Below are positions 19,986-59,839 of a stretch of 64,000 bases of DNA, one piece after another. Position numbers and translations under genes: made by a program. The first letter of the stretch is position 1; every line of letters begins with the position of its first letter. The DNA comes from Liolophura sinensis. Its lineage: Eukaryota > Mollusca > Polyplacophora > Chitonida > Chitonidae. The DNA lies in the NCBI RefSeq assembly GCF_032854445.1, contig NC_088302.1, forward strand, positions 50,500,046 through 50,564,045, given 5' to 3'. Below the pieces are notes generated by a model. It did no database searches. It saw only the letters and a program-made list of their open reading frames with translations, and was not told the DNA's origin.

Positions 19986-20113
19986 AGAACCGAGTAGAGC
20001 CGACGGCCATCCGCAGGTTGCTGTCAGAACTTGAACTCACAGCGACCGAATTGGTGAGAGGCTCCTGGGCCATTACGCTGACTAGAGCGCTAACGAACTG
20101 AAGCACGGAGGCC
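19985..20113 (-). mobile_element. SINE fragment at minisatellite edge
   Basis: Minus-strand fragment of the common SINE with tRNA-like head (cacggaggcc at its 5' end, near 20113) and 'gacggccatccgcaggttgc'. The 3' part is lost. The mirror at 45405-45585 is longer and keeps 'gccgccgtcgtat'. Confidence 0.85.
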
Positions 20114-22795: not shown

Positions 22796-23915
22796 ACCTG
22801 ACACCAATCGATGTCGCGTCACCAAGAAAACAAAACATATCCGACACCAAGCGATGTCGCGTCATCAAGAACACAAAACACTTCCGACACCAAGCGATGT
22901 CGCGTCACCAAGAAAACAAAATACATCCGACACCAAGCGCTGACAAGTCATCAAGAACACAAAACACACCCAACACCAAGAGCTGTCACGTCACCAAGAA
23001 AACAAAATACATCCAACACCAAACGCTGTCAAGTCATCAAGAACACAAAACACATCCGACACCAAGCGCTCTCACGTCACCAAGAATACAAAACGCACCC
23101 GACACCAAGCGCTGACAAGTCATCAAGAACACAGAACACATCCGACACCAAGCACTGACAAGTCACTAAGAACACAAAACACACCCAACACCAAGAGCTG
23201 TCACGTCACCAAGAAAACAAAATACATCCAACACCAAACGCTGTCAAGTCATCAAGAACACAAAACACATCCGACACCAACCGCTCTCACGTCACCAAGA
23301 ACACAAAACACACCCGACACCAAGCGCTGACAAGTCATCAAGAACACAAAACACATCCGACACCAAGCGCTGACAAGTCACCAAGAACACAAAACACACC
23401 CAACCCCAAGAGCTGTCATGTCACCAAGAAAACAAAATACATCCGACACCAAACGCTGTCAAGTCATCAAGAACACAAAACACATCCGACACCAAACGCT
23501 GACAAGTCACAAAGAACACAAAACACACCCAACACCAAGAGCTGTCACGTCACCACGAAAACAAAATACATCCAACACCAAACGCTTTAAAGTCATTAAG
23601 AATACAAAACACATCCGACACCAAGCGCTCTCACGTCACCAAGAACACAAAACACACCCGACACCAAGCGCTGACAAGTCACCAAGAAAACAAAACACTT
23701 CCGACACGAAGTGCTGTCATGTCACCAAGAAAACAAAACACATCCGACACCAAGCGCTGACAAGTCACCAAGAACACAAAACACACCCAACACCAAGAGC
23801 TGTCATGTCACCAAGAAAACAAAATACATCCAACACCAAGCGCTGACAAGTCATCAAGAACACAAAACACATCCGACACCAAGTGCTGTCACGTCAGCAA
23901 GAAAACAAAACACAT
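22796..23915. repeat. 43-bp minisatellite (left copy, about 26 units)
   Basis: Unit of 43 bp: 'caccaagcgctgacaagtca' + 'tcaagaacacaaaacacatc' + 'cga', with alternating variants (gctgtcacgtcaccaagaaa). Open frames with RHQENK/HPTPSA-type peptides are repeat shadows; the three frames cycle because 43 is not divisible by three. Mirrored at 42010-42920, and present in a diverged form at 63600-64000. Confidence 0.95.
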
Positions 23916-27267: not shown

Positions 27268-30200
27268 CTACGAGGAGTAACTGAACGGATCAGACTCCCT
27301 CGGGAACACAGTTTGTTGGCACACTGAACAGTTCGCATGTCTTTCGTCTCTTTTTATTTCCACTGCTGTCCGGCACGAAAGACATTGCACTTTTTGTAGC
27401 AGTCGAACATCGAAAGCCTCGTATCCTTTGTCCGTTGTAAATGCAAGAGAAAGTCAACCCTTTGACCTTCGTTCCGTGCACCTTCCAAATTACAAACTTT
27501 TGGAACAAAGAAGACTTTTACCTACACAGGAGTATTTCCCAAATCCATGGCAATGAGTCCAGATAGGGGTCTGTTAGGGTGGCAGATGAAACCTTTACAT
27601 ACGGTGAGCATGGATTCCACAGAGCCTTTCACGCTGCGTTTGTACCTATCGACATGGCCTTGTTGGGAAGAACCATTGGATACTAAGCGTTGTATACCGC
27701 TGCCAATACCTAGCCATTCCGGGGATAGCGCGCATCTCGCATATGCCTGTTTTGTCTCATCAAATTTTCCTTTAGCTCAATTGCTTTCCTGAGGTGGAAT
27801 TCCTTGGCACTTTCCCGATCTGTTTCCAAACCTAATAGGCTGGTTACTACAAATACATAATAATGTGAAAGAGTAATACCATGTATTAACGTGAGTTTGG
27901 ACATCTCCCAAATTATATGTATGGTGTAATCTCCCATGTCGTATGGCCACTATAAACTCTCTATAATCAGTGTCTAGAGCCTTCCGGTTGCTGATATGTC
28001 CTGATTGTTTTGTTTCTCCGAAATCTGCTTCGTACAGCTTAACAATTTCTGTCACGTCCTCCTGAGGCAGTTGATCCAAAACCGTCCATTACTTTCAGTC
28101 TGTTGACATGCTTCATCTTCGTTGTTGCGATCTTTAAACGTCTAGTATGGGAATTCTGTGAGGTACAAAGTTCCTCAAAACATGTTACATTCTTTGGAAT
28201 GTGATGTTGAACAAACCCACCATTTCATAGAAAAATCTACCCAGCTCATCTTGGTCAGTGTTGTGGTAGCATTGCATAATAAGACTATCCACTTCAGAGA
28301 AACTCGATGTAAGAAAACTAACGAGGTGAGGATCGCTGTTAGGGTCCTGTAGCAATTTCGAATGATCACCAAAGGCTGTTTCGATTGTTCCGCACATGTT
28401 CAACCTAACATCTATTTCGTTTATGTATCCATAACAATTTCCTGACCAGGTGAGATGTACTCACGATATTTTTGGAATAAATCGCATGCTCTCTCTCTCT
28501 TTGGTCCAAAAGTTTCTTAACAAAGCGCTGCATTACTGCGGAACTGCGTATATATTGGGTAGCGGCTTTGACTCTCTTCAAATAAACCATACCTTGCATG
28601 TGATACACATGGGTTAACGTGTGTCTGACCTTCATATCCCTTTTGTCGAGACCGTCACAAATTCCAAGAGCCTTCTCAACAGATTGCTCTGCCTTGTCCA
28701 TGTCCACAGGTAGACAATATGTGTAAAATCGACCGAGGTGAGCGTGAAAATTTGGATTCATGGGGAAAGGGTCACTCTAGAGTCTGAAGTATTTTCAGCT
28801 GATCTCTGTATGGCGGATTTGATTCCAAGTCCGAAAGAAGCTTGGACACCTTTGTCTTCACTGCTGACCCTTCACCGGGTATATCGACTGCATCTCTATA
28901 TTCACGCATGATAAATGTTTTCATCAGAATGTGAGTGATATTTTCAGAAACAATGCTATCTTTTGTCTTTCTTTGGCGTGAGTATGTGATAAAGTCTTGA
29001 GCAAAGTCTTTCAAATTTTGCCTCGCCAGTCGGCTTAAGTGACCAGGATCGTCGCAATCTCTTTCGTTTCCGGTCGGACGGTGACTTATCAGGAGCTGCT
29101 CGAGGATTTCTTGAACTATGACGTAATGAGAAATTTGTATGTGCTTCGGGTAAGTTTTGCTCTCTTTGATGAACTTTCTGGCACACTCAGGAAAATCCTC
29201 CCCAAAGAAACATCGTAATTTGGAGGCTCACCAATCAGGGTGGCAAAGAACTGACATGGAACACACGCCTGTCCGTAGTAGTACACCAGTGCTAAGTAGC
29301 CGAGGAGTTTTTGCCACGGAAACAAATCTCTCGTTGGGTTGTCTTCAAGATTCAAATATCCTCTCACATAAGATGCCACACCTCCAAATTCATGGAGGTA
29401 GGCAGCTACGTCGAACTCGTACAAGCAATGTTTTTTCCGCGCTTGACGTTTTCTGGTTCTTAAGAGCTGCTGTTGGTATTCTCTACTTTACCTCCCAGTC
29501 TGAGGACAAGTCGTTGCCCTTCATCTAGGCTAACTCCTTTCAAATAAAAAGTTGCAGCGCCGGCTTTGTTTTGTATATGAGTAATGCGGTATGTACAGCG
29601 CTTTACATACAAGATTATGGTTGGGATTCTGGACAACTGGCTTGCCATTAAATTGACCCTTGTTTCCTCTTCTCCGTCCATAAGTATAACCACAGGTGAA
29701 CCAGTTATTTTGTTCAATACATTAATTTTGCTTATTACTTAATCTAGCGTGAAATCCGCCCCTGTTCTTACCTGTACGCATGGTGTTTTTGCGTGCAGCT
29801 CCCACAGGAGTCTTTGTGCTAGGGTTGTTCCCCCGGATCCAGGAGCATGCAGGAGGGTTATCAAGGCGGGTTTGGATGTAGTTCGGCATCGACGTTCAAA
29901 TTCTGGAAGAATTTTATCCATCAGATCTCTCTGTTTATCGATAAATCCGAAAGACTCATATCAAGTATACCAGTGTATTGTCCCTCCTTTGAAGAACTCA
30001 TCCGTGTCATCAGAAATCGCTTCGGTGTCTCTCGATCTGGAATGTGGACTGTCGAGATACAGTACATCCAAGTCCTCCCTGCACCAGAGTTTGTCTCGAT
30101 CGCAAATTTCTGTTTGGCTTATTTCCCCGTTAAATATGGGTAACTTCATTTTAAGGACTTGGATGTTTTCATCATTGTCAAAACGCAGAGTTCAATCTTT

Positions 30201-32182
30201 GGAATCAGTATGTCATCTAAATCTTGAACAAAGGCCAGAAGATGATATGGGCAAAAGTCAAGGCTAGGCCACACCACCAAAACTCGTATTACTTGGGTAA
30301 TCTGCTGTAAATCTGCAAAGTTTCCTAACTGATGACAGTGCTTTTGCATTGCTAGTCGCGTTTTTGTCGCCAGGTTTTACTGTTCATATCAGCGCGAAAC
30401 TTGTTATCATCTGCTGTTCCTCTCACAAAACACCAAGTTGTTGAATGCTCCGAGACTCCAACTGGTGGCATTCCGCGCTGCCTGATATACAGAGATCTTT
30501 TGCTCTGCAAATAATTTTCGCAGGCCGCGAAAGTACCCGTGTGTCGACATCAAACACGTACAGCAAAGGAATCTTCATTAGTGCTGTCAGATTTCGAGTG
30601 TTACTTGGGATTTGGCCAACTACGAGGATACAATGCCCTTTTGTGAAAGCATGCAAAAAGTTTTGTCCCTCGTGTTCTGGTTTCTGACCCGCGGTTGAAT
30701 CGTCTAACTTTAGGTTAAACACCTCTTCGTGTTGACTATCAACCAGATTTTCATGGTTTTTACTTATACTAAACCAGTTGCATATGTCCATCGCCACACT
30801 GTGCTGTATCACTCTGCCCATGACGTTCTCGTCTTCCTTTCGATACCACAACTGTTCAACGTTAAAACAACACTCGGCTCTTACAGTTGTGCATGGGCTG
30901 CGCCGTCCTTCACTGGAACTGACTGTTAAAAGGCCAATACGCTTTTGCATGAAATCTACCTCTTCATAGTCAAACACTGGTCGAGTGTTAAAAAAATTGG
31001 CGAGAAATAATTCTTGCATTTCCTGGTCTGTTCGACTTTGTGACAGGCCGGTTACTTCATTGGGTGGCGTTGTGGATGCTTGAGCCCCCAGCAGGATATG
31101 ACCTGATATTTTGGGAGTATTCCACATACGGACAACGTCAAAAGAGAACAATGCTTTGTTCTCAAGGTACACGACTTCAGACGGCTGTAGAATCAGGCCT
31201 GGACCAGTTGGTGTTTGCAGAAGCCTTTCGGCCGTGGCTCTGTTGATTTCAACAGAGGGTGATGCGGTTCTGCTTTTGTTTGGAGAGGCCATTGCGTTCG
31301 GTGACAACTCACTCACTACTGCTAACTCTGTGAGTGCTTTCTCTGGTGAGATCTGCTGATCAACGTCAGGTATTTCAAAAGACGCTGACTGTCTTTGGCT
31401 CTTTTTTTCGGGAGACATGTCCATTTCTCTGATGACTTTTCACCCGCTGTTAAATTTTAGAGAACATTTGGTCTGAAGCGTTAAGCTTGTCTACACAAGA
31501 TGTTGCGGGAGAGGGAGATATACTGGAACGTGCAGTAGATAGACTACCGTAGTTATTTTTTCAATTGCACACTGTGAGGAAGACGCAGTTTTATTAACAC
31601 ATCGACGTTGTTTAACGACCCAGTTTTCACGCCGCTTTTCTAACTCAAAATGATCTCGGTGTTGCTGTATAAACGTTTTCATTGGCTGTCCCGTAATCAT
31701 TTTAAACGTTTGTTTATTTCCCTCTATAACGGTACTGTACAGACGAGCAAAGGCCGCTTTTGTAGATTCATATTCGCCTGGCTGTTCTGTGCAGCAAGGG
31801 TTAAGTATGCTGTTGAGCATTCCGATGATGACGTCATTCCGATCAAATGTTTTCATATCTGAGGAAACAATGGTATACGTATAAGTTATTAGCCAGAAGT
31901 CAGATGGGAATTTAATGTACATTTTTAATATATTAACATTGTGTCCATATCTAATGTTATTTGCATGAGTCAACACAGTAATTCAGACTAAGAAATCATA
32001 CTTTGTGAGGATACCTTGTAGATGTGCAGTGTATCTACCTGGTGATGGTGTCAACAGTTGTTTGGCCTCCTGGCAAAGAGTGTTCTGATCGCCGATGTGG
32101 ACGCCTTCACAGTTAGAAATATTGTACGTGATGTATCTCTCTATGTTGTAGCTCTGGCGATGATCTTGTCCCTTATTAGGCT
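27268..32182 (-). pseudogene. SAMD9-like pseudogene, left arm
   Basis: Minus-strand copy with the RHIM exon (32039-32182, 144 nt, core VHIG after YITYNISNCEG) and a decayed exon 3. Recognisable pieces include the AlbA_2-type domain in a 333-codon frame (31424-30423), the P-loop (HAPGSGGTTLA, in 29921-29739), TPR-like segments and the C-terminal zinc-ribbon region. It shares with the right pseudogene a TAA replacing Gln after the P-loop, a stop after LKILQTLE, a frame break at NTWYYSFTLL and a stop after NTPV. Private lesions include a damaged stretch where GEMNLQKLES reads GEYESTK and a deletion of about 120 bp before MKLPIFNGEISQ. No exon 1 is found towards the spacer. Closer to gene B than to gene A over the body. 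Confidence 0.9.
32039..32182 (-). other. RHIM exon of the left pseudogene
   Basis: 144-nt exon with intact splice signals (cccgccaagcag-type acceptor at 32183 side, gtagata donor at 32038) and the motif YNISNCEGVHIGDQNTL. It is open although the following exon is broken. It could still be transcribed, but I see no start codon exon to supply it. Confidence 0.65.
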
Positions 32183-34184: not shown

Positions 34185-34328
34185 AGCCTAATAAGGGGCA
34201 AGGTAGTCGCCAGAGCTACAACATAGAGAGATACATCACGTGCAATATTTCTAACTGTGAAGGCGTTCACATCGGCGATCAGAACACTCTTTGCCAGGAG
34301 GCCAAACAACTGTTGACACCATCACCAG
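34185..34328 (+). other. RHIM exon of the right pseudogene
   Basis: 144 nt, phase 1-1, acceptor cccccaagcag and donor gtagata intact. Same length as the other three RHIM exons. One Tyr of the motif's leading stretch is Cys compared with the left copy. Confidence 0.65.
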
Positions 34329-37184
34329 GTAGATACACTGCACATCCACAAGGTATCCTCATAAAGTATGATTTCTTACTCTGAAATACTGTGTTGACTC
34401 ATGCAAACAACATTAGATATGGACACAATGTTAATATATTAAAAATTTACATTAAATTCCCATCTGACTTCTGGCTAGTAACTTATACATATACCATTGT
34501 TTCCTCAGATATGAAAACAGTTGGTCGGAATGACGTCATCATCGGAATGTTCAACAGCATACTTAACCCTTGCTGCACAGAACAGCCCGGCGAGATGAAT
34601 CTACAAAAGCTGGAGTCGGCGTTTGCTCGCCTGTACAGTACCGTTATAGAGGGAAATAAACAAACGTTTAAAATGATTACGGGACAGCCAATGAAAACGT
34701 TTATACAGCAACATCGAGATCATTTTGAGTTAGAAAAGCGGCGTGAGAACTGGGTCGTTAAACAACGTCGATGTGTTAATAAAACTGCGTCTTCCTCACA
34801 GTGTACAATTCAAAAAATAACTACGGGTAGTTTACCTACAGCACGCTCCTGTATATCCCCCTCTCCCGCAACATCTTGTGTAGACAAGCTTAACGCTTCA
34901 GACCAAATGTTCTCTAAAATTTTAACAGCCGGTGAAAAGTCATCAGAGAAATGGACACAAGCCTCCCGAAAAAAAGAGCCAAAGACAGTCAGCGTCTTTT
35001 GAAATACCTGACGTTGATCAGCAGATCTCACCAGAGAAAGCACTCACAGAGTTAGCAGTAGGGAGTGAGTTGTCACCGAACGCAATGGCCTCTCCAAACA
35101 AAAGCAGAACCGCATCACTCTCTGCTGAAGGAAATAGAACCACGGCCGAAAGGCTTCTGCAAACATCACCTGGTCCAGGCCTGATTCTGCAGCCGTCTGA
35201 AGTCGTGTACCTTGAGAACAATGTATTGTTCTCTTTTGACGTTGTCCGTATGTGGAATACTCCCAAAATATCAGGCCATATCCTGCTGGGGGCTCAAGCA
35301 TCCACAACACCACCCCATAAAGTAACCGGCCTGTCGAACAGACCAGGAAATGCAAAAATTATTTCTCACCAATTTTTTTGACACTCGACCAGTGTTTGAC
35401 TATGTCGAGGTAGGTTGCATGCAAAAGCGTATTGGCCTTTTGACAGTCAGTTCCAGTGAAGGACGGGGCAGCCCATGCACAACTGCAAGAGCCGAGTCTT
35501 GTTTTAACGTTGAACAGTTATGGGATCGAAAGGAAGACGAGAACGTCATGGACAGAGTGATACAGCACAGTGTGGCGATGGACATATGCAACTGGTTTAG
35601 TATAAGTAAAAACCATGAAAATCTGGGTGATAGTCAACACGAAGAGGTGTTTAACCTAAAGTTAGACGATTCAACCGCGGGTCAGAAACCAGAACACGAG
35701 GGACAAAACATTTTGCATGCTTTCACAAAAGGACATTGTATCCTTGTAGTTGGCCAGATCCCAAGTAACACTCGAAATCTTATAGCACTGATGAAGATTC
35801 CTTTGCTATACGTGTTTGATTTCGACACCGAGAGTCGACACAGGGGTACTTTCGCGGCCTGCGAAAATTATTTGCAGAGCAAAAGATCTCTGTATATCAG
35901 ACAGTGGGGAATGCCACCAGATGGAGTCTCGGAGCATTCAACAACTTGGTGTTTTGTAAGAGGAACAGTAGATGATAACTTGGCGGCAAAAACGCGACTA
36001 GCAATGCAAAAGCACTGTCATCAGTTAGGAAACTTTGCAGATTTACAGCAGATTACCCAAGTAATGCGAGTTTTGGTGGTGTGGCCTAGCCTTGACTTTT
36101 GCCCATATCATCTTCTGGCCTTTGTTCAAGACTTAGATGACATACTGAGTCCAAAGATTGAACTTATTTTAGTCTCCATGCCAAAAAATAATGATGGAAG
36201 TTGTGTGATCCAAACGTTACACAATCACCTGAACATTGTCCTGATGATTTTACCAGTTGAGAAGCTGTGCCAGGAAATAAATCTGTGTTTTGACAATGAT
36301 GAAGACATCCAAGTCCTTAAAATGAAGTTACCCATATTTAACGGGGAAATAAGCCAGACAGAAATTTGCGATCGAGACAAACTCTGGTTCAGGGAGGACT
36401 TGGATGTACTGTATCTAGACAGTCCACATTCCAGATCGAGAGACACCGAACCGATTTCTGATGACACGGATGAGTTCTTCAAAGGAGGGTATAATACACT
36501 GGTATAGTTGGTATGAATGTAGTTCCGGATTTATCGATAAACAGAGAGATCTGATGGATAAAATTCTTCCAGAACTTGAACGTCGATGCCGAACTCCATC
36601 AAAACCCCCCTTGATAACCCTCCTGCATGCTCCTGGATCCGGGGGAACAACCCTAGCACAAAGACTCCTGTGGGAGCTGCACACAAAAACACCATGCGTA
36701 CAGGTAAGAACAGGGGCGGATTTAACGCTAGATTAAGTAATAAGCAAAATTAATGTATTGAACAAAATAACTGGTTCACCTGTAGTTATACTTATGGACG
36801 GAGAAGAGGGTGAATTTAATGGCAAACCAGTTGTCCAGAATCCCAACCATGATCTTGTATGTAAAGCGCTGTACATACCGCATTACTCATATAGAAAACA
36901 AAGCCGGCGCTGCAACTTTTTATTTGAAAGGAGAAGTTAGCCTAGATGAAGGGCAACGACTTGTCCTCAGACTGGGAGGTACAGTAGAGGATACCAACAG
37001 AAAAGCAGCTCTTAACCTGACAGAAAACGTCAAGCACGGAAAAAAACATTGCTTGTACGAGTTCGGCCTAGCTGCCTACCTTCATGAATTTGGATGTGTG
37101 GCATCTTATGTGAGAGGATATTTGAATCTTGAAGACAACCCAACCAGAGATTTGTTTCCGTGGCAAAAACTCCTCGGCTACTTA

Positions 37185-37464
37185 TCGATATACAGAGAGA
37201 TTTCAGAAACAATGAATTTGAACTTTGATATGGAATTCATGCCTGGAATATTCATTGTCTGCCCGGCATCATTGAAAACTGATGACCGCTTCTCTCTTGT
37301 GTGTTACCGGATTTATTTCTTATTTGTATAATTTCTTACATACCTTTGTCTTCGGGAGATGGTGTTAAACGTTGTTGTGGAAATGGATCTTGCGATTATC
37401 GACTTGGAACGCCCTTTATGGACTACGAATGGTATAGGAATGTCGGACTTGACGCTTATACTTA
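37185..37464 (+). other. 280-bp insertion in the right pseudogene
   Basis: Interrupts codons for GYL-ALVYYYG, which are contiguous in genes A and B and in the left pseudogene. It is flanked by a 6-base direct repeat (tactta at 37179-37184 and 37459-37464). The junction and first 17 inserted bases together form a 20-base match to another part of the SAMD9-like gene (57123-57142 in gene B). The remaining bases are not recognised. No terminal inverted repeats. Confidence 0.75.
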
Positions 37465-39478
37465 GCATTGGTGTACTACTACGGACAGGCGTGTGTTCCA
37501 TGCCAGTTCTTTGCCACTCTGATTGGTAAGCCTCCAAATTACAATGTTTCTTTCGAGGATTTTCCTGAGAGTGCCAGAGAGTTCATCAAAGAGGGCAAAA
37601 CTTACCCAAAGCACATACGAATTTCTCACTACGTCATAGCTCAAGAAATCCTCGATCAGCTCCTGATAAGACACCGTCCGACCGGAAACGAAAGAGACTG
37701 CGACGATCCCGGTCGCTTAAGCCGACTGGCGAGGCAAAATATGAAAGACTTTGCTCAAGACTTTATCACATACTCACGCCAAAGAAAAACAAAAGATAGC
37801 ATTGTTTCTGAAAATATCACTCACATTCTGATGATTTCACTCGCATTTATCATGCGTGAATATAGAGATGCAGTCGATATACCCGGTGAAGGGTCAGCAG
37901 TGAAGCCAAAGGTGTCCAAGCTTCTTTCGGGTTTGGAATCAAATCCGCCATACAGAGATCAGCTGAAAATACTTCAGACTCTAGAGTGACCCTTTCCCCA
38001 TGATTCCAAATTTTCACGCTTACCTCGGTCGATTTTACTCATATTGTCCACCTGTGGACATGGACAAGGCAGAGCAATCCGTTGAGAAGGCTCTTGGAAA
38101 TTGTGACGGTCTCGAGAAAAGGGATATAAAGGTCAAACAGACGTTAACCCATGTGTATCACATGTACAGTATGGTTTATTTGAAGAGAGTCAAAGCCGCT
38201 GCACAATATATACACAGTTCTGCAGTAATGCAGCGCTGTGTTAAGAAACTTTTGGACCAAAGAGAGAGAGAGCATGCGATTTATTCCAAAAATGTCGTGA
38301 GTACATCTCACCTGGTCAGGAAAATTGTTATGCATACATAAACGAAATAGATGTTAGGTTGAACATGTGCGGAACAATCGAAACAGCCTTTGGTGATCAT
38401 TCGAAATTGTTACAGGACCCTCGTTAGTTTTCTTACATCGAGTTTCTCTGAAGTGGATAATCTTATTATGCAATGCTACCACAACACTGACCAAGATGAG
38501 CTGGGTAGATTTTTCTATGAAATGGTGGGTTTGTTCAAAATCACATTCCAAAAGAATGTAACATGTTTTGAGAAACTTTGTACCTCACAGAATTCCCATA
38601 CTAGACGTTTAAAGATCGCAACAACGGAGATGAAGCATGTCAACAATCGGAAAGTAATGACGGTTTTGGATCAACTGCCTCAGGAGGGAATAACAGAAAT
38701 TGTTAAGATGTACGAAGCAGATTTCGGAGAAACAAAACAATCAGGACATATCAGCAACCGGAAGGCTCTAGACACTGATTATAGAGAGTTTATAGTGGCC
38801 ATACGACATGGGAGATTACACCATACATATAATTTGGAAGATGTCCAAACTCACGTTAATACATGGTATTACTCTTTCACATTATTATGTATTTGTAGTA
38901 ACCAGCCTATTAGGTTTGGAAACAGATCGGGAAAGTGCCAAGGAATTCCACCTCAGGAAAGCAATTGAGCTAAAGGAAAATTTGATGAGACAAAACAGGC
39001 ATATGCGAGATGCGCGCTATCCCCGGGAATGGCTAGGTATTGGCAGCGGTATACAACGCTTAGTATCCAATGGTTCTTCCCAACAAGGCCATGTCGATAG
39101 GTACAAATGCAGCGTGAAAGGCTCTGTGGAATCCATGCTCACCGTATGTAAAGGTTTCATCTGCCACCCTAACAGGCCCCTATCTGGACTCATTGCCATG
39201 GATTTGGGAAACACTCCTGTGTAGGTAAAAGTCTTCTTTGTTCCAAAAGTTTGTAATTTGGAAGGTGCACGGAACGAAGGTCAAAGGGTTGACTTTCTCT
39301 TGCATTTACAACGGACAAAGGATACGAGGCTTTCGATGTTCAACTGCTACAAAAAGTGCAATGTCTTTCGTGCCGGACAGCAGTGGAAATAAAAAGAGAC
39401 GAAAGACATGCGAACTGTTCAGTGTGCCAACAAACTGTGTTCCCGAGGGAGTCTGATCCGTTCAGTTACTCCTCGTAG

Positions 39479-42009: not shown

Positions 42010-42920
42010 GTATGAATGTGTTTTGTGTTCTTGGTGACGTGAGAGCGCTTGGTGTCGGATGTGTTTTGTGTTCTTGATGACTTGACAGCGTTTGGTGTTG
42101 GATGTATTTTGTTTTCTTGGTGACGTGACAGCTCTTGGTGTTGGGTGTGTTTTGTGTTCTTGGTGACTTGTCAGCGCTTGATGTCGGATGTGTTTTGTTT
42201 TCTTGGTGACATGACAGCACTTCGTGTCGGAAGTGTTTTGTTTTCTTGGTGACTTGTCAGCGCTTGGTGTCGGATGTGTTTTGTGTTCTGGGTGACGTGA
42301 GAGCGTTTGGTGTCGGATGTGTTTTGTATTCTTAATGACTTTACAGCGTTTTGTGCTGGATGTATTTTGTTTTCTTGGTGACGTGACAGCTCTTGGTGTT
42401 GGGTGTGTTTTGTGTTCTTTGTGACTTGTCAGCGTTTGGTGTCGGATGTGTTTTGTGTTCTTGATGACTTGACAGCGTTTGGTGTCGGATGTATTTTGTT
42501 TTCTTGGTGACGTGAGAGCTCTTGGGGTTGGGTGTGTTTTGTGTTCTTGGTGACTTGTCAGTGCTTGGTGTCGGATGTGTTTTGTGTTCTTGATGACTTG
42601 TCAGCGCTTGGTGTCGGGTGTGTTTTGTGTTCTTGGTGACGTGAGAGCGCTTGGTGTCGGATGTGTTTTGTGTTCTTGATGACTTGACAGCGTTTGGTGT
42701 TGGATGTATTTTGTTTTCTTGGTGACGTGAGAGCGCTTGGTGTCGGATGTGTTTTGTGTTCTTGATGACTTGTCAGCGCTTGGTGTCGGATGTATTTTGT
42801 TTTCTTGGTGACGCGACATCGCTTGGTGTCGAAGTGTTTTGTGTTCTTGATGACGCGACATCGCTTGGTGTCGGATGTGTTTTGTTTTCTTGGTGACGCG
42901 ACATCGATTGGTGTCAGGTG
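42010..42920. repeat. 43-bp minisatellite, right copy (about 21 units)
   Basis: Reverse complement of the unit at 22796-23915 ('tgtgttttgtgttcttggtg' + 'acgtgagagcgcttggtgtc' + 'gga'). It has about five fewer units than the left copy. Confidence 0.95.
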
Positions 42921-45585: not shown

Positions 45586-48500
45586 TCTGAGTATACCTGT
45601 AGACAGGAAAACTATCCACCGTCCTACTCTTGGATGTTGTGCTTTATACCTACAAGAAGGTAAATTAACCACCGCCTTCTTCATGGATGTTGTACTCCAT
45701 ACCTATAGAAAGCTAAATTAGCCATCGTCCTCCTCATGGATGTTGTAATCCATATATATAGGAAGGTAAATTAGCCACCGTCCTCCTCATGGATGTTGCA
45801 ATTTATACCTGTAGGCAGGTAAACTAACCATCGTCCTCTTCGTGGATGTTGTAATCCATATTTATACGAAGGTAAAATAGCCACAGTCCTCCTCGTGGAT
45901 GTTGTACTTTATACCTGCAGGAAGGTAAATCAGCCACAGTCCTCCTCATGGATGTTGTACTTTATACCTGCAGGAAGGTAAATCAGCCACTTTCCTCCTC
46001 GTGAATGTTGTACTTTATACCTGCAGGAAGGTAAATCAGCCACTTTCCTCCTCGTGGATGTTGTACTTTATACCTGCAGGAAGGTAAATCAGCCACTTTC
46101 CTCCTCGTGGATGTTGTACTTTATACCTGCAGGAAGGTAAATCAGCCACTTTCTTCCTCGTGGATGTTGTACTTTATACCTGCAGGAAGGTAAATTAGCC
46201 ACCGTCCTCCTCATGGATGTTGTACTTTATACCTGCAGGAAGGTAAATCAGCCACTTTCCTCCTCGTGGATGTTGTACTTTATACATGCAGGAAGGTACA
46301 TTAGCCACCGTCCTCCTCATGAATGTCGTACTTTTTAAAAGTAGGCAGATAAATTAGCCATCGTCCTTCTCGTGGATGTTGTACTTTATACCTGTAGGCA
46401 GGTAAACTAGCCATCCTCCTCCTCGTGGATGTTGTACTTTATACCTGTAGGCAGGTAAACTAACCTCCGTCCTCCTCGAAAATGTTGTACTTTTTAACAG
46501 AAGGCAAGTAAATTAGCCACCGTCCTTCTCGTGGATGTTGTACTTCATACATGCAGGAAGGTAAATTAGCCACCGTCCTTCTCGTGGATGTTGTACTTCA
46601 TACATGCAGGAATGTAAATTAGCCACCGTCCTCCTCGTGGATGTTGTACTTCATACATGCAGGCAGGTAAATTAGCCACCATCCTCCTCAAGAATGTTGT
46701 ACCTCATACATGCAGGAAAGTAAATTAGCCACCGTTCTCCTCATGGATGTTGTACTTTATACCTGTAGGCAGGTAAACTAGCCACCGTCCCTCATCGAAG
46801 ATGTTGTACTTTTTAACAGTAGGCAGGTAAATTAACCACCATCCTTCCGTGGATGTTTTACTTCATACATGCAGGAAGGTATATTAGCCATCGTCCTTCT
46901 CGTGGATGTTGTACTTCATACATGCAGGGAGGTAAATTAGCCATCGTCCTTCTCATGGATGTTGTACTTCATACATGCAGGAAGGTAAATTAGCCATGTC
47001 TTTCTCGTGGACGTTGTGCTTTATACCTGTAGGCAGGTAAACTAGCCATCGTCCTCCTCGTGGATGTTGTGTTTTTTAACAGTAGGCAGGGTAAATTAGC
47101 CACCGTCCTTTTAGTGGATGTTGTACTTTATGCCTGCAGGAAGGTAAATTAGCCACCGTTCTCCTCATGGATGTTGTACTTTTTAACAGTAGGTAGGTAA
47201 ATTAGCCACCGTCCTCCTCGTGGATGTTGTACTTCATTAATGCAGGAAGGTAAATTAGCCTCATAGATGTTGTAATTTATACCTGTAGGCAGGTAAATTA
47301 ACCACCGTCCTCCTCGTGGATGTTGTACTTCATACATGCAGGAAGTTAAATTAGCCACTGTCTTCGTCGTGTATGTTGTGCTTTATACCTTTAGGCAGGT
47401 AAACTAGCCATCGTCTTCTTCATGGATGTTGTACTTTTTAACAGTAGGAAGGTAAATAGCCCCCGGTCTTCTCGTGGATATTGTATTTCATACATGCAGG
47501 AAGGTAAATAATCCGCCGTCCTCCTCGTGGATGTATCTCATACATGCAGGAAGGTAAATTAGCCACCGTTCTCCTCATGGATGTTGTAACTTTATACCTG
47601 TAGGCAGGTAAACTAGCCATTGTCTTCCTCATGGATTTCGTACTTTTTAACAGTAGGAAGTTAAATTAGCCACCGTCCTACTCGATGATGTTGTACTTCA
47701 TACATGCAGGAAGGTAAATTAGCCATCGTCCTCCTCGTGGATGTTGTACTTCATACATTCAGGAATTGAAATTAGCCACCATCCTCCTCGTGGATGTTGT
47801 ACTTCATACATGCAGGAAGGTAAATTAGCCACCGTTCTCGTCATGGATGTTGTACTTTATACCTGTAGGCAGGTAAACTAGCCATCGTCTTCCTCATTTA
47901 TGTCGTACTTTTTAACGGTAGGATGTAAAATTAGCCACCGTCCTTTTCGTGGATGTTGTACCTCATACATGCAGGAAGGTAAATTAGCCATCGTCCTCCT
48001 CGTGGATGTTTGTACTTCATACATGTAGGAAGGTAAATTAACACCATCCTCCTCATGGATGTTGTACCTCATACATGCAGGAAGATAATTAGCCTGCGTC
48101 CTCCTCATAGATGTTGTAATTTATACCTGTAGGCAGGTAATTTAGCCATCGTCCTCCTCGTGGATGTTGTACTTCATACATGCAGGAAGGGAAATTATCC
48201 ACCATCCTCCTCAAGGACGTTGTACCTCGTACATGCAGGAAAGTAAATTAGCCACCGTTCTCCTCATGGATGTTGTACTTTATACCTGTAGGCAGGTAAA
48301 CTAGCCACCGTCCTCATCGAAGATGTTGTACTTTTTAACAGTTGACAGGTAAATTAACCACCGTCCTTCTCGTGGATGTTGTACTTCATACATGCAGGGA
48401 GGTAAATTAGCCACCGTTTTCCTCATGGATGTTGTACTTTATACCTGTTGGCAGGTAAACTAGCCATCGTCCTCCCATGGATGTCGTACATTTTAACAGT

Positions 48501-49850
48501 AGGAAGTTAAATTAGCCACCGTCCTTCTCGTGGATGTTGTACTTCATACATGCAGGAAGGTAAATTAGCCACCGTCCTTCTCGTGGATGCTGTACTTCAT
48601 ACATGCAGGAAGGTAAATTAGCCACCGTCTTTTCGTGGATGTTGTACTTCATACATGCAGGAAGGTAAATTAGCCATCGTCCTCCTCGTGGATGTTGTAC
48701 TTCATACATGCAAGGAAGGTAAATTAGCCCATCCTCCTCCTCGTGGATGTTTTACTTCATACATGCAGAAGGTAAATAGCCAATGTCTTCCTCGTGGATG
48801 TTGTACTTCATACATGCAGGCAGGTAAATTAGCCACCATCCTCCTCAAGAATGTTGTACCTCATACATGCAGGAAAGTAAAATTAGCCACCGTTCTCCTC
48901 ATGGATGTTGTACTTTATACCTGTAGGCAGGTAAATTAGCCATCGTCCTCCCCGTGGATGTTGTACTTCATACATGCAGGAAGGTAAATTAGCCACCGTC
49001 CTTCTCGTGGATGTTGTACCTCATACATGCAGGAAGGTAAATTAGCCACCATCCTTCTCGGTGGATGTTGTACTTTATACCTATATGAAGGTAAATTAGC
49101 CACCGTCCTCCTCGTGGATGTTGTACTTCATACATGCAGGAAGGTAAATTAACCACCGTCCCTCCTCGTGGATGTTGTACTTCATACATGCAGGAAGGTA
49201 AATTAGCCAATGTCTTCCTCGTGGATGTTGTACTTCATACATGCAGGAAGGTAAATTAGCCACCGTCCTCCTCGTGGATGTTTGTACTTCATACATGCAG
49301 GAAGGTAACACCGTCCTCCTCGTGGATGTTGTACTTCATACATGCAGGAAGGTAAATTATGCACCGCCCTCCTCATGGATGTTGTACTTTATACCTGTTG
49401 GCAGGTAAACTAGCCATCGTCCTCCTCATGGAAGTCCGTACTTTTTAAACAGTAGGAAGTTAAATTAACCACCGCCCCTCCTCATTAAATGTTGTACTTT
49501 AAAAATGTTAGGAAAGGTAAATCAGCCATCGTCCTCCTCATGGATGCTGTATTTTATACCTATAAGAAGGTAAATTAGCCACCGACCTCCTCGTCGATGT
49601 TGTACTTTATACTTGCAGGAAGGTAAATTAGCCACCGCCCTCCTCATGGATGCTGTATTTTATACCTATAAGAAGGTAAATTATCCACCATCCTCCTCGT
49701 GGATGTTGTACATTTAAGTCGTAGCAAGGTAATTAGCCACCGTCCTCTTTGTGGATGTTGTACCTTATACCTGCAGGAACGTAAATTAGCCACCATCCTT
49801 CTCGTGGATGTCGTACCTCATACCTGTAAGAGGGTAAATAAGGCACATTT
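45586..49850. repeat. 53-bp minisatellite, expanded right copy (about 80 units)
   Basis: Unit of about 53 bp: 'aggtaaattagccaccgtcc' + 'tcctcgtggatgttgtactt' + 'catacatgcagga'. Several variants of the last third (cctgcaggaag, cctgtaggcagg, aacagtaggaag) occur in mixed order. Five near-identical units at 45970-46180 with the private change 'cagccactttcctcctcg' point to a recent local expansion. Frames through the array are repeat shadows. Confidence 0.96.
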
Positions 49851-52247: not shown

Positions 52248-52338
52248 ATGGCGTCTGTACCAAATGACAAGAGGAAGAAAAAGAAGAAAAAGTCCCAAAA
52301 AGTCACAGAAATCCCATCTCCCAACCTAAACCTGACAG
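52248..52338 (+). CDS. SAMD9-like gene B, exon 1, basic N-terminus
   Basis: First coding exon of 91 nt, 30 codons plus one base: MASVPNDKRKKKKKKSQK, then a Ser/Pro stretch ending NLNLT. Donor ctgacag|gtaaaa. The lysine run has six Lys after KR against seven in gene A, and the following segment differs at several residues, so the A-rich codon run behaves like a microsatellite. Phase fits exon 2. Confidence 0.75.
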
Positions 52339-52901
52339 GTAAAATATGTAGGCCTACATGTATATCGATACATTCAAAGTGCTGCCTTTTTGAAATGCCA
52401 TATTCCTGTAGGAACACCGGCGGAAATCAAGGAAATCGTTGCCCAGTGTTAGGATTGAACTTACTTCTCGTGTGCTTCGTGGACTACTAAACATTCAGCT
52501 ACATTTTCATCTTCCCTAAATGTATTAGGCAAAACCGGAAGGACCCTGCAGACAGGGGGCCTAAGTTTTTAATGGGATTTCGACGGATTTGTTTTTTATT
52601 ATTATTATTTTACTCAGTATTATTTCCTTTCAAATCCCTACTTGTTTTATTAACCAGATTGAAGAGAGGGAAAACAGAATTCTCCGTTTAACAACCGATC
52701 ATGCCTAATTTTTGTTTTCTGATATGGTCGGGTTAGACCCAAGACAGAATATTTTAAAAGACTGACCCACTTTCATTTTCAGTAACCTTCACATCCTAGC
52801 GCCCACATCCTTACATCCACTTTAAAACACCTAATACCCTAACTCAGGTGTTCTTATTATCGACAGATGGTAAGTGTTTGCAATACTTTTTCCTTTTGCA
52901 G
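52339..52901 (+). other. intron 1 of SAMD9-like gene B
   Basis: Between donor gtaaaa at 52339 and acceptor ccttttgcag ending at 52901. Contains 'attattattatttta' near 52597, mirror of the left microsatellite. No other signal. Confidence 0.7.
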
Positions 52902-53045
52902 GACAAAATGATAGACAAGACATTCCACGGGCTTCTCCCTTGTATCCATACATCACTTACAACATTTTTAACTGTGAAAACTTTCAAATTGGCGATCGGA
53001 CAACTCTCATTTCTGAAGCGAGGCAACTGTTGAAGTCACCATCAG
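52902..53045 (+). CDS. SAMD9-like gene B, exon 2, RHIM-like motif
   Basis: 144 nt, phase 1-1, between ttttgcag and gtaatc. Motif YNIFNCENFQIGDRTTL; in the spliced protein FQIG is residues 58-61. The exon joins as LT-G-QND upstream and SPS-D-NKAD downstream, giving one open frame of 1617 codons over three exons (91 + 144 + 4616 nt). Because the exon is symmetric, skipping it would leave the frame intact and yield a RHIM-less protein; this is an inference. Confidence 0.8.
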
Positions 53046-53562
53046 GTAATCTTGTCTTTGTAAATTATCTTGATAATTATTAAAGGATCAAGTTAAAGGA
53101 TTTAATACGCTTAAAAATAAAGATTACACGGCAAGTAAATGGTGTATGCGATCTGGATGACATGTTTTACGTCATATTATGTACTGTTTAAGCTGCATTG
53201 AAAGCTGTACTGAAATGCGGTGGATAGCAGTCATAATATTGACTGCGACAGTAATCTGGCTATCTACTAAAGTGTAGATAGTAGTCATATTATTGACTGT
53301 GTAAGGGATCTGACTTTATACTGAAGTGTACATAGTAATTATATTATTGACCGTGTAAAGGGATCTGGCCCTCTATTAAAGTGTCCATGGTAACCATAGT
53401 ATTGACTGTGTAAGGGATCTAGTTGTATGCTGGAGGGTACATAGTTGTCATATTATTGACTGTGTAAGGGATCTGGCTCTCTACTGAAGTGTACATAGTT
53501 GTCATATTATTGACTGTGTAAGGGATCTGGGTCTCTGCTGAAGTGTACATAGTTGTCATGGT

Positions 53563-53781
53563 TTATTTATTTATTTATTTATTTATTTATTTGATTGGTG
53601 TTTCACGCCGTACTCAAGAATATTTCACTTATACGACGGCGGCCAGCATTATGGTGGGGAAGCCCACGACCATCCGCAGGTTACTGTCAGACCTTCCCAC
53701 TTACGGCCGGAGAGAAATCCGGCATGAGCTGGACTTGAACTCACAGCGACAGCATTGGTGAGAGACTCCTGGGTCATTATG
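53563..53781 (-). mobile_element. SINE with target-site duplication, right arm only
   Basis: Minus-strand SINE with a long tail (seven AAAT units), lacking the tRNA-like head. It is flanked by an exact 12-bp direct repeat agttgtcatggt at 53551-53562 and 53782-53793. No copy at the mirrored place in the left arm, so it inserted after the duplication (or is allelic). Confidence 0.92.
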
Positions 53782-54244
53782 AGTTGTCATGGTCTCGACT
53801 GTGTAAAGGCTCTGGCTCTCTGCTGAAATGTACATAGTTGTCATAGTATTGACTGTGTAAGGGATCTGGCTCTACACTGAGGTGTAGGTGGTAGTCATAT
53901 TATTGACTATTACATAATCTGGCTGTATACCGAAGTGCTCATAGTAGTCTTAGTATTGACTCTGTAGGGATCTGGTTCTGTACATAGTGGTCATATTGTG
54001 TGTGGCATCTGGCTGTATACTAAAGTGTAAGCGGTAAGGATATTATCGACTGTGTGGGAGATCTGGCTTAATACTGAAGTGTACATAGTACTCATATTAT
54101 TGTGTTGGGGACCTGGCTGTAGATATATACTAAACTGTAAGCGGTAGGCATATTACTGACTGTGTAAAGGGGTCTAGTTCAATACTGAAGTGCACGTAGA
54201 ACTCATATTATTGTACAGGGGACCTGGCTGTACATGCATACTGA

Positions 54245-54497
54245 TTTATCTGATTGGTATTTTACGCCGTACTAAAGAATATTTCACTTATACGACGACG
54301 GCCAGCATTATGGTGGGTGGAAACCGGGCAGAGCTTCCGCAGGTTGCTGAAAGACCTTTCCACGTACAGCCGGAGAGGAAGCCAGCATGAGCTGGACTTG
54401 AACTCACAGCGACCGCATTTAGGAGAGTCATTACGACCCATTTAATGCGTCATTACGCTGCGCTAGCGCGCTAAACAACTGAGCCACGGAGGCCCCT
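54245..54497 (-). mobile_element. near full-length SINE with target-site duplication, right arm only
   Basis: Minus-strand SINE with head (gagccacggaggcc) and short tail. Flanked by 12-bp direct repeats catgcatactga (54233-54244) and catgtatactga (54498-54509), one mismatch. Absent from the mirrored place in the left arm. Confidence 0.88.
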
Positions 54498-54876
54498 CAT
54501 GTATACTGAAGTGTAGCAGTAGGGATATTATTGATTGTGTGGGGAATCTGGCCACAATGACGACTGAAAGATACAGGTCATTGATTGGGTAGGACTGAGT
54601 GGATCTGGGTACATATACATCCACAAAATTTGCATGTACTTAATTTCTGCATGGGTTCTGGCTATGTACTTTGCATATCGTCATTAATTACTGTGTAGAA
54701 CTTTGGCTGCATGCATAATTTATAGGGGCTCTGGCTAAATGCACAAATGTGTAGCCGTTATATTATGGAAATGTTCATGAGATCTGGCTTTTAACCGATA
54801 ATAACGTATACACATGTAATTATATTATTGATTATTTAAAAGTCCTGGCAATATACCTATAATATGCCTATACGTG

Positions 54877-54977
54877 TTTATTTATTTATTTGATGGAAGT
54901 TTTGGTGACAGGCTCCGTGGTCACTACGCTAACTACGCCCGTGGTCACTACGCTAACCACTAGGCCAATGAGGCCCC
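54877..54977 (-). mobile_element. SINE remnant with internal deletion
   Basis: Tail 'tttatttatttatttgatgg' followed directly by a tRNA-like head region with a small internal duplication (gtggtcactacgctaac twice). Mirror of the longer element at 11450-11674. Confidence 0.8.
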
Positions 54978-55223
54978 GGTATTCCTGTATAAGGGATATT
55001 GTGGTGTCTTACCCCTAGATAAGTGAGGCAGCATGTTCAGATCTAACTATCTATGGCTTGGCTGAGTCCCTGCAATCGTGCCAGGTGGGTTATTAGTTAC
55101 CTGACAAGGTGCAGTGGATACTATCCACCTAATCATAAATGAAAGAAACAAACTGACTATTTATGCAGCACCCAGAAGTAACTAGAGTATTTGTATTTTT
55201 TTTTTATAAACTTCTATTCTCAG

Positions 55224-58200
55224 ACAATAAAGCTGACGTAATCATCGGAATGCTCAACAGCATACTTAACCCTAGCTGTACGGAACAGCCCGGCGAGATG
55301 AATCTGCAAAAGCTGGAGTCGGCGTTTGATCGCCTGTATGGCTCCATTATAGAGGGAAAGAAACAAACGTTTAAAATGATTACAGAGCAGCCAATGAAAA
55401 AGTTTATCCAGCAACACCCAGATCATTTTGAGTTAGAAAATCGACAGGGAAACTGGAACGTTAAGCAATGTCGACATGTTGATAAAACTTCAACCGCTGT
55501 ACAATCTACTTACATCGACGTATCTGTGGAAAGGGACTGCGCACTAGTTACCTCGACAGATGGCGTCCCGACCAACTCTGTTGTAGATCAGCAAATTTCA
55601 AGAGAAAACACACATCCAGAGGTTTCAGTAGTGGATGACCTGCCATCAAAGTCATGGGCAAAAGTCACTCGAAACAAAAGAACAATGCAATCACCCTCTG
55701 TTGAAATCAACAGAGCCACGGTTGATAGGCTTTTGCAAACATCACCTGGTCCAGGCCTGATTCTGCAGCCGTCTGAAGTCGTGTACCTTGAGAACAAAGC
55801 ATTGTTCTCTCTTGACATTGTTAGTATGTGGAATACTCCCAAAATATCAGGCCATATCCTGCTGGGGGCTCAAGCATCCACAACGCTACCCCATAAAGTA
55901 ACCGGCCTGTCACAAAGTCGAACAGACCAGGAAATGCAAGAATTATTTCTCGCCGAGTCCTTTGACACTCGACCAATGTTTCGCTATGTCGAGGTAGATT
56001 TCTTGGAAAAGCGTGTCGGACTTTTAACAGTCAATTCTAGTGCAGGGCAAGGCAAACCATGCACAACTGTAAGATCCCAGTCTTGTTTTAACGTCGATCA
56101 GCTATGGTATCGAAAAGGAGACGAGAGCGTCATGTGCAAACTATCAGAGAACATGGTCGTAATGGACATATACAAATGGTTTATCGGGAGTAAAGACGAA
56201 GACAAACTATTGGACACACAATACAACGATCTGTTTAAAACAAAGATAGACGATTCATCCCTAAAGGCACCTCAAACTGAAAATATTTTGGACATATTCA
56301 CAAAAGGGCATGGTATCCTTGTAGTTGGCCAAATCCCAAGTAACACTCGAAATCTGTCAGCACTGATGAAGATTCCTTGGCTGTACGTGTTTGATTTCGA
56401 CATAGAAAGTCGATCCACGGGGACTTTAGGTGCGTGTCAAAGTGCTCTGGAGAGTAAAAGATCCCTGTACATAAGACATTGGGGAATGCCTCCAGTTGGA
56501 GTCTCGGAGCATTCGACAACTTGGTGTTTTGTAAGAGGTACAAGAGACATTCCTGAGTTTCGCGTTGAAGGGAACAGTAAGGCATGGCGACAGAAAACCC
56601 GAGTACAAATACGGAAACATTATCAACAGCTGGGTAAGTTTGCAGCAGACTACACCACTCTGCGGGTTTTGGTTGTGTGGTCTAACCTTGACTTTTGTCC
56701 ACATCATCTTCATTCATTTTTACAAGACTTAGATGACAATTTGACGCCGAGAATAGAAATAAGTTTAAGTTTGATGCCGACTTCTGCTGAAGGAAACAGT
56801 GTTTTTCAGATTTTTAAAACTCATTTGGACATTGAACCGAAGATTATGCCCGTTGAGAGATTATGCCAAGATATAAACGTTCGCTTTGAAGACAAAAACA
56901 GAGACGTTTTGCAACTGAAGTTACCCATATTTAACGGGGAAATAAGCCAAACAGAAATTTGCGATCGTGACAAACTCTGGTTCAGTGAGGACTTGGATGT
57001 ACTGTATCTAGACAGTCCATATTCCAGATCGAGAGACACCGAAGCTATCTCCCATGATATAGATGAGTTCTTCAAAGGAGGGACAATACACTGGTATACA
57101 TGGTATGAGTGTAGTTCTGGATTTATCGATATACAGAGAGATCTGATGGATAAAATTCTTCCAGAACTTGAACGTCGATGCCGAACTCCATCCAAACCCG
57201 CCTTGATAACCCTCCTGCATGCTCCTGGATCCGGGGGAACAACCCTAGCACAAAGACTCCTGTGGGAGCTGCACACAAAAACACCATGCGTGCAAGTAAG
57301 AACAGGGGCTGATTTCACGCTAGATCAAGTAATAAGCAAAATTAATGTGTTGAACAAAATAACAGGTTCACCTGTGGTTATACTTATGGACGGAGAAGAG
57401 GAAACAAGGGTCAATTTAATGGCAAACCAGTTGTCCAGAATCCCAACCATAATCTTGTATGTAAAGCGCTGTACATATCGCATGACTCACATAGAAAACA
57501 AGGCCGGGGCAGCAACTTTCTATTTGAAAGGAGAAGTTAGCTCTGATGAAGCGAAACGACTTGCTCTCAAACTGAGAGATAAAGTAGAGGATGCAAACAG
57601 AAAAGCAGCTCTTAACAAGCTAACAGAAAACGTTTCGAATGGGAAAAGCCAGTGTTTGTACGAGTTCGGCCTAGCTGCCTACCTCCATGAATTTAGAGGT
57701 GTGGCATCTTATGTGAGAGGATATTTGCATCTTGAAGACAACCCAACCAGAGATTTGCATCCGTGGCAAAAACTACTTGGATACCTGGCATTGGTGTACT
57801 ACTACGGACAGGCATGTGTTCCATGTCAGTTCTTTGCCACCCTGATTGGTAAGCCGCCAAATTACGATGTTTCTTTGGAGGATTTTCCTGAGTGTGCCAG
57901 AGAGTTCATCAAAGAGAGCAAAACTTACCCGAAGCACATACGCATTTCTCATTACGTCATAGCTCAAGAAATCCTCGAGCAGCTTCTGACAAGACACCGC
58001 CCAAGCGGAAACGAAATAGACAACCCCGATCCCACCAGTCTTAGCACGCTGGCGAAGCAAAATTTGAAAGATTTTGCAGTAGACTTTATTAAATATGCAA
58101 GTCAGAGGAAAACAAAGGATAACGTTGTTTCGGAAACGATAATCTACATTCTGACGAAAACGTTTATCATGCGTGAATACAGAGATGCTGCCGATATCCC

Positions 58201-59839
58201 TGGAGAAGCATCAGAAGTCAAGCCAAAGGTGTCCAAGCTACTTTCGGACTTGGAATCCCACCCACCATTTATAGACCAGCTGAAGATACTTAACACTCTT
58301 AGTGAATCCTTCCCTATGGATCCAAATTTTCACGCTCACCTAGGGCGATTTTACACATACTGTCCACCAGTAGACATGGACAAAGCAGAACAATGTTTTG
58401 AGAAGGCTTTGGGAATTTGCGACGGTCTCGACAAAAAGGGTACGAAAGTCAAACAGACGTTAACCCATGTGTATCACATGTACGGTATGGTTTATCTGAA
58501 GAGAGTCAAAGCCGCTACACAATATAAACGTGGAAAGAGGTGTTGCTTCGAAATGCAGCGTCGAGTCGAGGAATCTTTGCTGCAAGCGGAGAGAGCATGC
58601 GACCTATTCCAGAAGTGTCGTGAGCACATCCCACCTGGTCAGGAAGACTGTTATGGGTACTTGAACGAAATAGAAGTTAGGCTGAGCATGTGCGGAGCAA
58701 TCGAAACAGCCTTCGGTGATCTTTCCCAATTTATCCAGAACCCTAACAGCGATCCACATCTCGTTAGGTTTCTTACATCGAGTTTCTCTGAAGTGGATAG
58801 TCTTATTATGCAATGCTACCACAACATTGACCAAGATGAGCTGGGTAGATTTTTCTATGACATGGTGGGTTTATTCAACACTACATTTCAAAAGAATGTA
58901 ACATGTTTTGAGAAACTTTGTACCTCACAGAATTCCCATACTAGACGATTAAAGATTGCGACAACCAAGATGAAATATGTCAGCAATCCGAGAGAAATGA
59001 CGGTTTTAGATCAACTGCCTCAGGAGGACGTGACAGAAATTGTTAAAATGTACGAGGCTAACTTTACGGAAATTAAAGAATCAGGACATATCAGCAACCG
59101 AAATGCTCTGGACACTGACTATAGGGAATGGATAGTGGCCATACGATGTGATAAATTGCAGCATGCATATGATTTGGGAGATGTCCAAACTCAAGTCTAT
59201 GCGTGGCGCAAGAGCCTAAAAACTCCTCTGTCTCTTTATTACGTATTTGTAGTCACAAGCCTATTAGGTTTGGAAACAGATCGGGGAAGTGCCAAGGAAT
59301 TCCACCTCAGGAAAGCAGATGAGCTAAAGGAAAATCTGAAGAGAGAAAGCAGATATACACGAGATTCGCGCTATCCCCGGGAATGGCTAGGAGTCGGCAG
59401 AGGTATAAAACGCTTGGTGCCCAGTGGCTGTTCCCAACAAGGCCATGTCGATCGGTACTGTCACAAACGAAGTGTGAAAGGCTCTGTGGAATCCATACTA
59501 GCCGTCTGTAAGGGAACGATCTGCCACCCCAATAAACCCCTTTCTGGACATATTGCCATGGATTTGGGAAACACTCCTGTGCAGGTAAAAGTCTTCTTTG
59601 TTCCAAAAGTTTGTAATTTGGAAGGTGCACGAAACGAAAACCAAAGAGTTGAGTTTCACTTGGCATTTACAATGGACAAAGGATACGAGGCTTTCAATGT
59701 CCAACTACTAGAGAAAGTTCAATGCCCTTCGTGCCGGACAGCAGTGGAGATAAAAAGTGACGAAAGACATGCGAGTTGTTCAGTGTGCCAACAAACTGTG
59801 TTCCCGAAGGAATCTGATCCGTTCAGTTACTCTTCGTAG
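55224..59839 (+). CDS. SAMD9-like STAND NTPase, gene B, large terminal exon (exon 3)
   Basis: Exon of 4616 nt after acceptor ttctattctcag, stop TAG at 59837-59839; spliced product 1616 aa. Domain order as in gene A. In spliced numbering: helical domain with EQPGEMNLQKLESAF (about 80-155), AlbA_2-type E263-x4-E268 with MWNTPKISGHILLG and Asp337, SIR2-like region, FFKGGTIHWYTWYE, Walker A APGSGGTTLA, Walker B VVILMDGEE, TPR-like PNFHAHLGRFYTYC and ALGICDGL, OB-like region (HPNKPLSGHIAMDLG), zinc ribbon CPSC then CSVC. The ATG at 55163 is intronic and is rejected as the start. The first 263 codons of that frame are nearly identical to gene A; the rest is closer to the pseudogenes (for example VNLMANQLSRIPT and THIENKAGAATFYLKG). 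No lesions seen. Confidence 0.9.

Follow-up and report, generated by a model that had tools for sequence, protein, structure and literature searches.

A RHIM-like motif spliced in front of a SAMD9-type protein in the chiton Liolophura sinensis, and its recurrence in other molluscs

We analyzed a stretch of 64,000 nucleotides (the window) from the chiton Liolophura sinensis (RefSeq assembly GCF_032854445.1, contig NC_088302.1, positions 50,500,046 to 50,564,045 of the forward strand), in which a gene that we call copy A joins a short exon bearing a RHIM-like motif to a large exon encoding a SAMD9-type body. The RHIM likeness of the motif is well supported by sequence comparison, and the sequences indicate that an architecture of RHIM-like motif and SAMD9-like body is real and recurs across molluscs. 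All coordinates below are positions in the window.

Gene structure and copies in the window

Copy A lies at 52248-59839 on the forward strand and has three exons of 91, 144 and 4616 nucleotides, which splice to a product of 1616 residues with a single terminal stop. The introns have GT donors and AG acceptors, and both junctions are phase 1/1. The spliced translation is identical over its full length to the NCBI protein of LOC135472503 (Liolophura sinensis), an independent computed gene model that makes the same exon joins as our reading of the DNA. An earlier sequence-only reading by a model had proposed that a 144-nucleotide exon with an FQIG core is joined in phase to a SAMD9-like exon, and that structure stands. 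The parts of the gene are as follows.

52248-52338, forward strand: exon 1 of copy A, with the lysine-rich start MASVPNDKRKKKKKKSQ..., from the splice reading; protein P0002 has the same start
52902-53045, forward strand: exon 2 of copy A, phase 1-1, with the RHIM-like motif, from the splice reading and motif scores
52958-53008, forward strand: the RHIM-like motif YNIFNCENFQIGDRTTL, residues 50-66, with FQIG at 52982-52993, from the motif scan
55224-59839, forward strand: exon 3 of copy A, the SAMD9-like body, from the splice reading and family matches

Copy A belongs to a large imperfect inverted duplication that spans 6550-59940, with its centre near 33.2 kb and facing segments that are about 82-96% identical. 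The outer SAMD9-like pair, A and A', is intact, with A' splicing to 1625 residues and one terminal stop, and the inner pair, B and B', contains stops and frame changes that disrupt it. The RHIM-like exon is kept in all four copies, the other three of which are listed here.

6567-14741, reverse strand: intact inverted paralogue A', exons 14741-14645, 14051-13908 and 11203-6567, the RHIM-like exon being 14051-13908
27286-32177, reverse strand: inner copy B', disrupted, with core VHIG in its RHIM-like exon at 32177-32034
34196-39460, forward strand: inner copy B, disrupted, with core VHIG in its RHIM-like exon at 34196-34333

When the 609-Mb assembly was searched with exon 3 (E <= 1e-10), at least 21 matches were found, a lower bound from 14 scored candidates, and all of them lie inside the window and belong to the four copies. 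Between A and A', identity is 94.4% in exon 2, 92.3% in intron 1, 93.1% in the 5' flank and 81.5% in exon 3. The large coding exon has thus diverged more than intron 1 and the 5' flank (52248-59839 compared with 14741-6567), a pattern for which a fast-evolving body or gene conversion at the 5' end could be responsible.

Resemblance of the motif to RHIMs

A PDB search with a single sequence of 29 residues returned three matches, each of them a RIPK3 RHIM, all weak (E 1.5-2.2). With a profile built from just the four copies in the window, RIPK3 RHIM chains ranked 1-3 (E 0.0026-0.0039), followed by three weaker, unrelated matches. A molluscan profile of 13 rows, four of them from the window and all with segments picked by eye, gave 10 matches with E values from 1.1e-5 to 0.74, six at or under 0.0013. 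Nine of these are RIPK3 or RIPK1 chains; the tenth is a partner chain in RIPK3 entry 12kl that is named ribonucleotide reductase-like, which we take to be a viral RHIM.

The profile on which we relied is an ungapped 17-mer profile of 10 non-chiton proteins, its members picked by eye. It scores copy A at 18.4 bits, A' at 22.9 and B' at 35.0, while the best of 96,354 body 17-mers (those beyond residue 220 of proteins P0001-P0077, our set of SAMD9-like proteins) reaches 11.7 bits. When the N-terminal 120 residues of A were shuffled 5000 times, 1, 0 and 0 of the shuffles reached the scores of A, A' and B', respectively. Each of the ten members, left out in turn, scores 20.1-43.5 bits.

The published RHIM core tetrad, (V/I)-Q-(V/I/L/C)-G (PMC9444067), is present in P0003, P0005, P0020, P0035 and P0041, whose cores are IQVG, IQIG or VQIG. 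The Pfam RHIM family matches 7 of the 15 members of the 15-protein alignment A3 at E <= 1. It has no match in P0045, P0046 or P0077, and it is not among the 25 families listed in either of the Pfam scans of 31 and 30 further proteins (the best 25 of 29 and of 59 families). From these comparisons, we hold the molluscan group as a whole to be RHIM-related.

Recurrence among SAMD9-like proteins

The sequence-only reading had suggested a survey of other molluscan SAMD9-like genes, and the motif proves to be common to 14 of the 77 proteins: within the first 220 residues these have a 17-mer scoring above the body maximum. They are the ten profile members, P0002, P0030 (14.8 bits), P0032 (13.2) and P0012 (13.0). 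Twelve of the 14 carry a species name, and besides the chiton they comprise one species that we take to be a gastropod (the abalone Haliotis) and others that we take to be bivalves. A full-length alignment of 15 proteins, built regardless of the motif, reads NCxGxQIGxxN in consensus at the motif site; rows P0054 and P0056 lack the motif in those columns. In P0045, a Death domain (27.9 bits in Pfam) is followed by the RHIM-like motif and then the SAMD9 body, and P0077 has the same order with a Death match of 16.8 bits, below the cut-off. P0077 is, with P0076, one of two proteins new to the set among the five found by an alignment search.

A separate N-terminal variant, NIYHTEQHG(S/D)xNT, occurs in P0012 (from the oyster Saccostrea) and P0032; it scores above all body 17-mers and lacks the RHIM tetrad.

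The SAMD9-type body

Sequence matches and a predicted fold match to human SAMD9 place the body of copy A in the SAMD9 family. It is made up of the following parts.

55226-55477, forward strand: predicted LOTUS (OST-HTH) fold, exon-3 residues 1-84
55697-56185, forward strand: AlbA_2 / tRNase-SA fold, tRNase-site residues replaced
56273-56998, forward strand: SIR2-like fold
57065-57391, forward strand: STAND P-loop domain, with HAPGSGGTT at 57218-57244 and no Walker lysine
58466-59710, forward strand: helical repeats and, where SAMD9 has its OB fold, a beta domain; match to human SAMD9 1118-1589
59711-59836, forward strand: zinc-ribbon-like CxxC..CxxC tail at the C terminus, past the end of the alignment to human SAMD9

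The core order of the SAMD9 family in the wide sense, AlbA_2, SIR2-like, P-loop NTPase, TPR and OB (PMC5445408), is found in copy A, preceded by LOTUS / OST-HTH as a predicted fold. Its P-loop reads GGT/S for GKT/S, as in 73 of the 77 proteins, the pattern being unmatched in the other 4. Scanned over its full length with Pfam (E <= 1), the protein shows no SAM domain, nor any kinase, Z-alpha or TIR family.

The sequence-only reading had described a STAND NTPase with a Schlafen-type domain in which a RHIM had replaced the SAM domain. The P-loop domain is present, but its Walker lysine is missing, a family-wide trait; AlbA_2 is likewise present, but the residues aligned with the tRNase site are replaced. 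The replacement of SAM has to be given up. SAM is reported to be limited to vertebrates, and many proteins of other animals have DEATH-superfamily domains (PMC5445408). Moreover, the motif adjoins a Death-like domain in P0045 and P0077, so that the RHIM would be one of several front modules, one that adds to others rather than simply replacing them.

Proposed mechanism and alternatives

We propose that copy A encodes a SAMD9-family immune sensor that signals outward, through a RHIM amyloid seed, to RHIM partners, a proposal whose chances we judge to be about even. A trigger would cause the STAND core of the protein to cluster, and the clustered RHIMs would fold into an amyloid seed. This seed would recruit other RHIM proteins, for example a RIPK1-like kinase, and the result would be NF-kB signalling or cell death. 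The LOTUS, degenerate AlbA_2, OB and zinc-ribbon-like parts may sense or bind RNA. In fungal NLRs, an N-terminal amyloid motif is reported to fold into amyloid on clustering and to template an effector (PMC5485727); the motif of copy A stands ahead of a STAND body in the same layout, which counts in favour of amyloid output. A RHIM partner class exists in molluscs, since zebra mussel RIPK1 has a RHIM and was able to activate NF-kB when tested with a reporter (PMC12119088). Taken further, these proteins might be an animal counterpart of fungal NLR-amyloid signalling: a SAMD9-type sensor, fronted by an RNA-binding LOTUS domain and a pseudo-tRNase, that passes its signal to RIPK1-type partners by templating RHIM amyloid. 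Such a route of RHIM activation would not depend on ZBP1, TRIF or TNF receptors and would predate the divergence of chitons, snails and clams. We advance this wider reading tentatively, with the balance somewhat against it.

Several results weigh against a RHIM that signals to partners. The chiton cores, FQIG in A and A' and VHIG in B and B', fall outside the published tetrad, and Pfam RHIM matches none of the chiton sequences tried. Scored singly with the same family, seven relatives reach 12.8-18.3 bits, below the 20-bit cut-off. A gapped profile without chiton rows gives A 2.7 bits and A' 8.7, while the best shuffled proteins reach 9.1. Of the 47 codons of exon 2, 4 differ between A and A' by a replacement and 4 silently. 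The exon has no excess conservation over intron 1 or the 5' flank, and no selection is seen in this comparison. Support for the motif, as far as the alignments go, is conservation across species, not between the two paralogues. Among the 77 proteins, 63 lack such an N-terminal motif, many of which look like predictions that begin inside the large exon; of the 18 with a longer start, 10 are positive and 8 still lack it, by a crude rule for the presence of the N terminus that passed over four positives (P0002, P0041, P0045 and P0046). By motif scan and tblastn, the window contains no RHIM-like gene other than the four SAMD9-like copies, and no RHIM partner gene came out of the searches described below, of which the genome search with Pfam RHIM was uninformative. 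The earlier reading had called exon 2 a RHIM outright. The profile matches to RIPK3 and RIPK1 support a likeness, but because of the core outside the vertebrate tetrad, the Pfam misses, the failure of the gapped profile and the lack of excess conservation between A and A', we term the chiton motif RHIM-like.

The search for partners took several forms. Within the window, no adjacent effector gene with the same motif was found. A genome search with Pfam RHIM had 0 matches among 24 candidates, and as 0 of 14 control genomes matched either, it carries no weight; a protein search for shorter RHIM proteins with the motif of Solemya gave 2 candidates, neither of which scored at E <= 10. The pattern N-C-x-x-(V/I/L/M)-Q-(V/I/M)-G, which does not fit the window exons themselves and would miss partners with other letters, had 57 matches in the genome and 59 for the reversed control. 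The best of the 57 scored 15.8, compared with 18.4-35.0 for the window exons. Ten places with NC(S/T)YIQ(I/V)G or a stop variant of it were rejected as short frames, likely of a dispersed repeat.

It is also conceivable, but in our view unlikely, that the RHIM is an input: filaments of an upstream RHIM adaptor would draw the SAMD9-like protein into clusters, and an effector of its own, the AlbA_2 nuclease or the SIR2-like domain, would then act. Both folds are predicted in copy A, and human SAMD9 is reported to cleave tRNA-Phe through its AlbA_2 domain, a tRNase that needs the acidic residues E184, E196, E218 and D241 and the basic residues K198, K214 and R221 (PMC12331169). In our alignment A2, however, the D and K of DFK and the K of IKD are each kept in 6 of 6 bacterial-type rows but in only 0, 6 and 1 of the 43 animal-type rows, respectively (two of which are from this window), with gaps in 4, 7 and 1; the chiton residues at these positions are I, Q and L. 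Of the 43 rows, 39 keep the D of IKD and 39 the N of ANTP. The three columns probably correspond to human SAMD9 E196, K198 and K214, an equivalence drawn from spacing. On that reading, a catalytic acid and two essential lysines of the SAMD9 tRNase-SA are replaced, and the nuclease site is apparently gone. In addition, some RHIM-bearing members of A2 (P0035, P0045 and P0046) have no aligned AlbA_2. With the tRNase-site residues replaced, we take the motif rather than the nuclease as the output, and we favour a RHIM that acts as output over one that acts as input.

We consider it improbable that the motif is a decoy or brake, which with its unusual core would soak up or cap RHIM fibrils and so damp RIPK1-type signalling. 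Viral RHIM decoys exist (PMC7375649), and the chiton core does depart from the strict tetrad; yet other molluscan relatives have strict IQIG, VQIG or IQVG cores, and a large STAND protein makes up the body. Slightly less probable again is a short linker that resembles a RHIM by chance or convergence and forms no amyloid. The Pfam misses, the weak single-sequence PDB matches and the equal numbers of replacement and silent differences would suit such a linker. Against it, all three single-sequence matches are RIPK3 RHIMs, the profiles match RIPK3 and RIPK1, and the motif recurs at the same place across mollusc classes. Finally, exon 2 might be in the gene model but seldom or never in the transcript, given that the evidence is DNA and a computed gene model and that an exon whose length is a multiple of three can be skipped with the frame kept, but this is very improbable, as the splice sites and open frame are conserved in A and A' and entire predicted proteins of other molluscs have this motif at their front.

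Other features of the window

Tandem arrays (counted at a score of 300 or more) lie in mirror positions on the two sides of the inverted duplication. Those with 54-bp units are at 12004-13574 (29 copies) and, in intron 2 of copy A, at 53224-53559 (6 copies). Units of 53 bp form arrays at 18749-19987 (23 copies) and 45592-49846 (80 copies), and units of 43 bp at 22800-23915 (26 copies) and 42016-42915 (21 copies). An open frame at 2742-4070 on the forward strand contains polycystin cation channel domains.

Comparison with known systems

To our knowledge, how the front modules of SAMD9 proteins trigger signalling is an open question. A natural SAMD9-type protein with a RHIM-like motif would tie this family, whose members are reported to be antiviral and to cause human disease when mutated (PMC5445408), to RHIM amyloid signalling. 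Animals would then have their own parallel to the NLR-amyloid cell death of fungi, and molluscan RIPK1 would have a candidate upstream sensor. One cockle iridovirus reportedly has a gene for a CARD+RHIM protein that resembles bivalve sequences (PMC12452177), and the fusion suggests why a bivalve iridovirus might carry one. The front modules other than SAM that are listed for the SAMD9 family are CARD, Death, Pyrin and FIIND, with no mention of RHIM in the parts of that source covered here (PMC5445408). No RHIM-SAMD9 fusion was found in the literature searched, largely titles and abstract openings; the list of non-vertebrate RHIMs by Kajava (2014) could mention one.

Copy A resembles SAMD9 and SAMD9L in its AlbA_2 and SIR2-like folds, its GGT-for-GKT P-loop, its helical repeats and its beta domain at the OB place. 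It differs from them in the RHIM-like exon and predicted LOTUS fold in front, the zinc-ribbon-like tail and the replaced tRNase residues. Among the RHIM proteins RIPK1, RIPK3, ZBP1 and TRIF, the motif matches the RIPK3 and RIPK1 chains by profile, but the chiton core is FQIG or VHIG and the motif is N-terminal, ahead of a STAND body. The likeness to fungal NLR amyloid signalling (NWD2/HET-S and PNT1/HELLP; PMC5485727) is one of position alone, with the motif N-terminal to a STAND-type receptor; the core is of SAMD9 type here and NACHT or NB-ARC there, and no neighbouring effector with the same motif is seen in the window. The zebra mussel RIPK1 (PMC12119088) is likewise a molluscan immune protein with a RHIM, but it has a kinase and a Death domain and would be a candidate partner of copy A rather than a relative.

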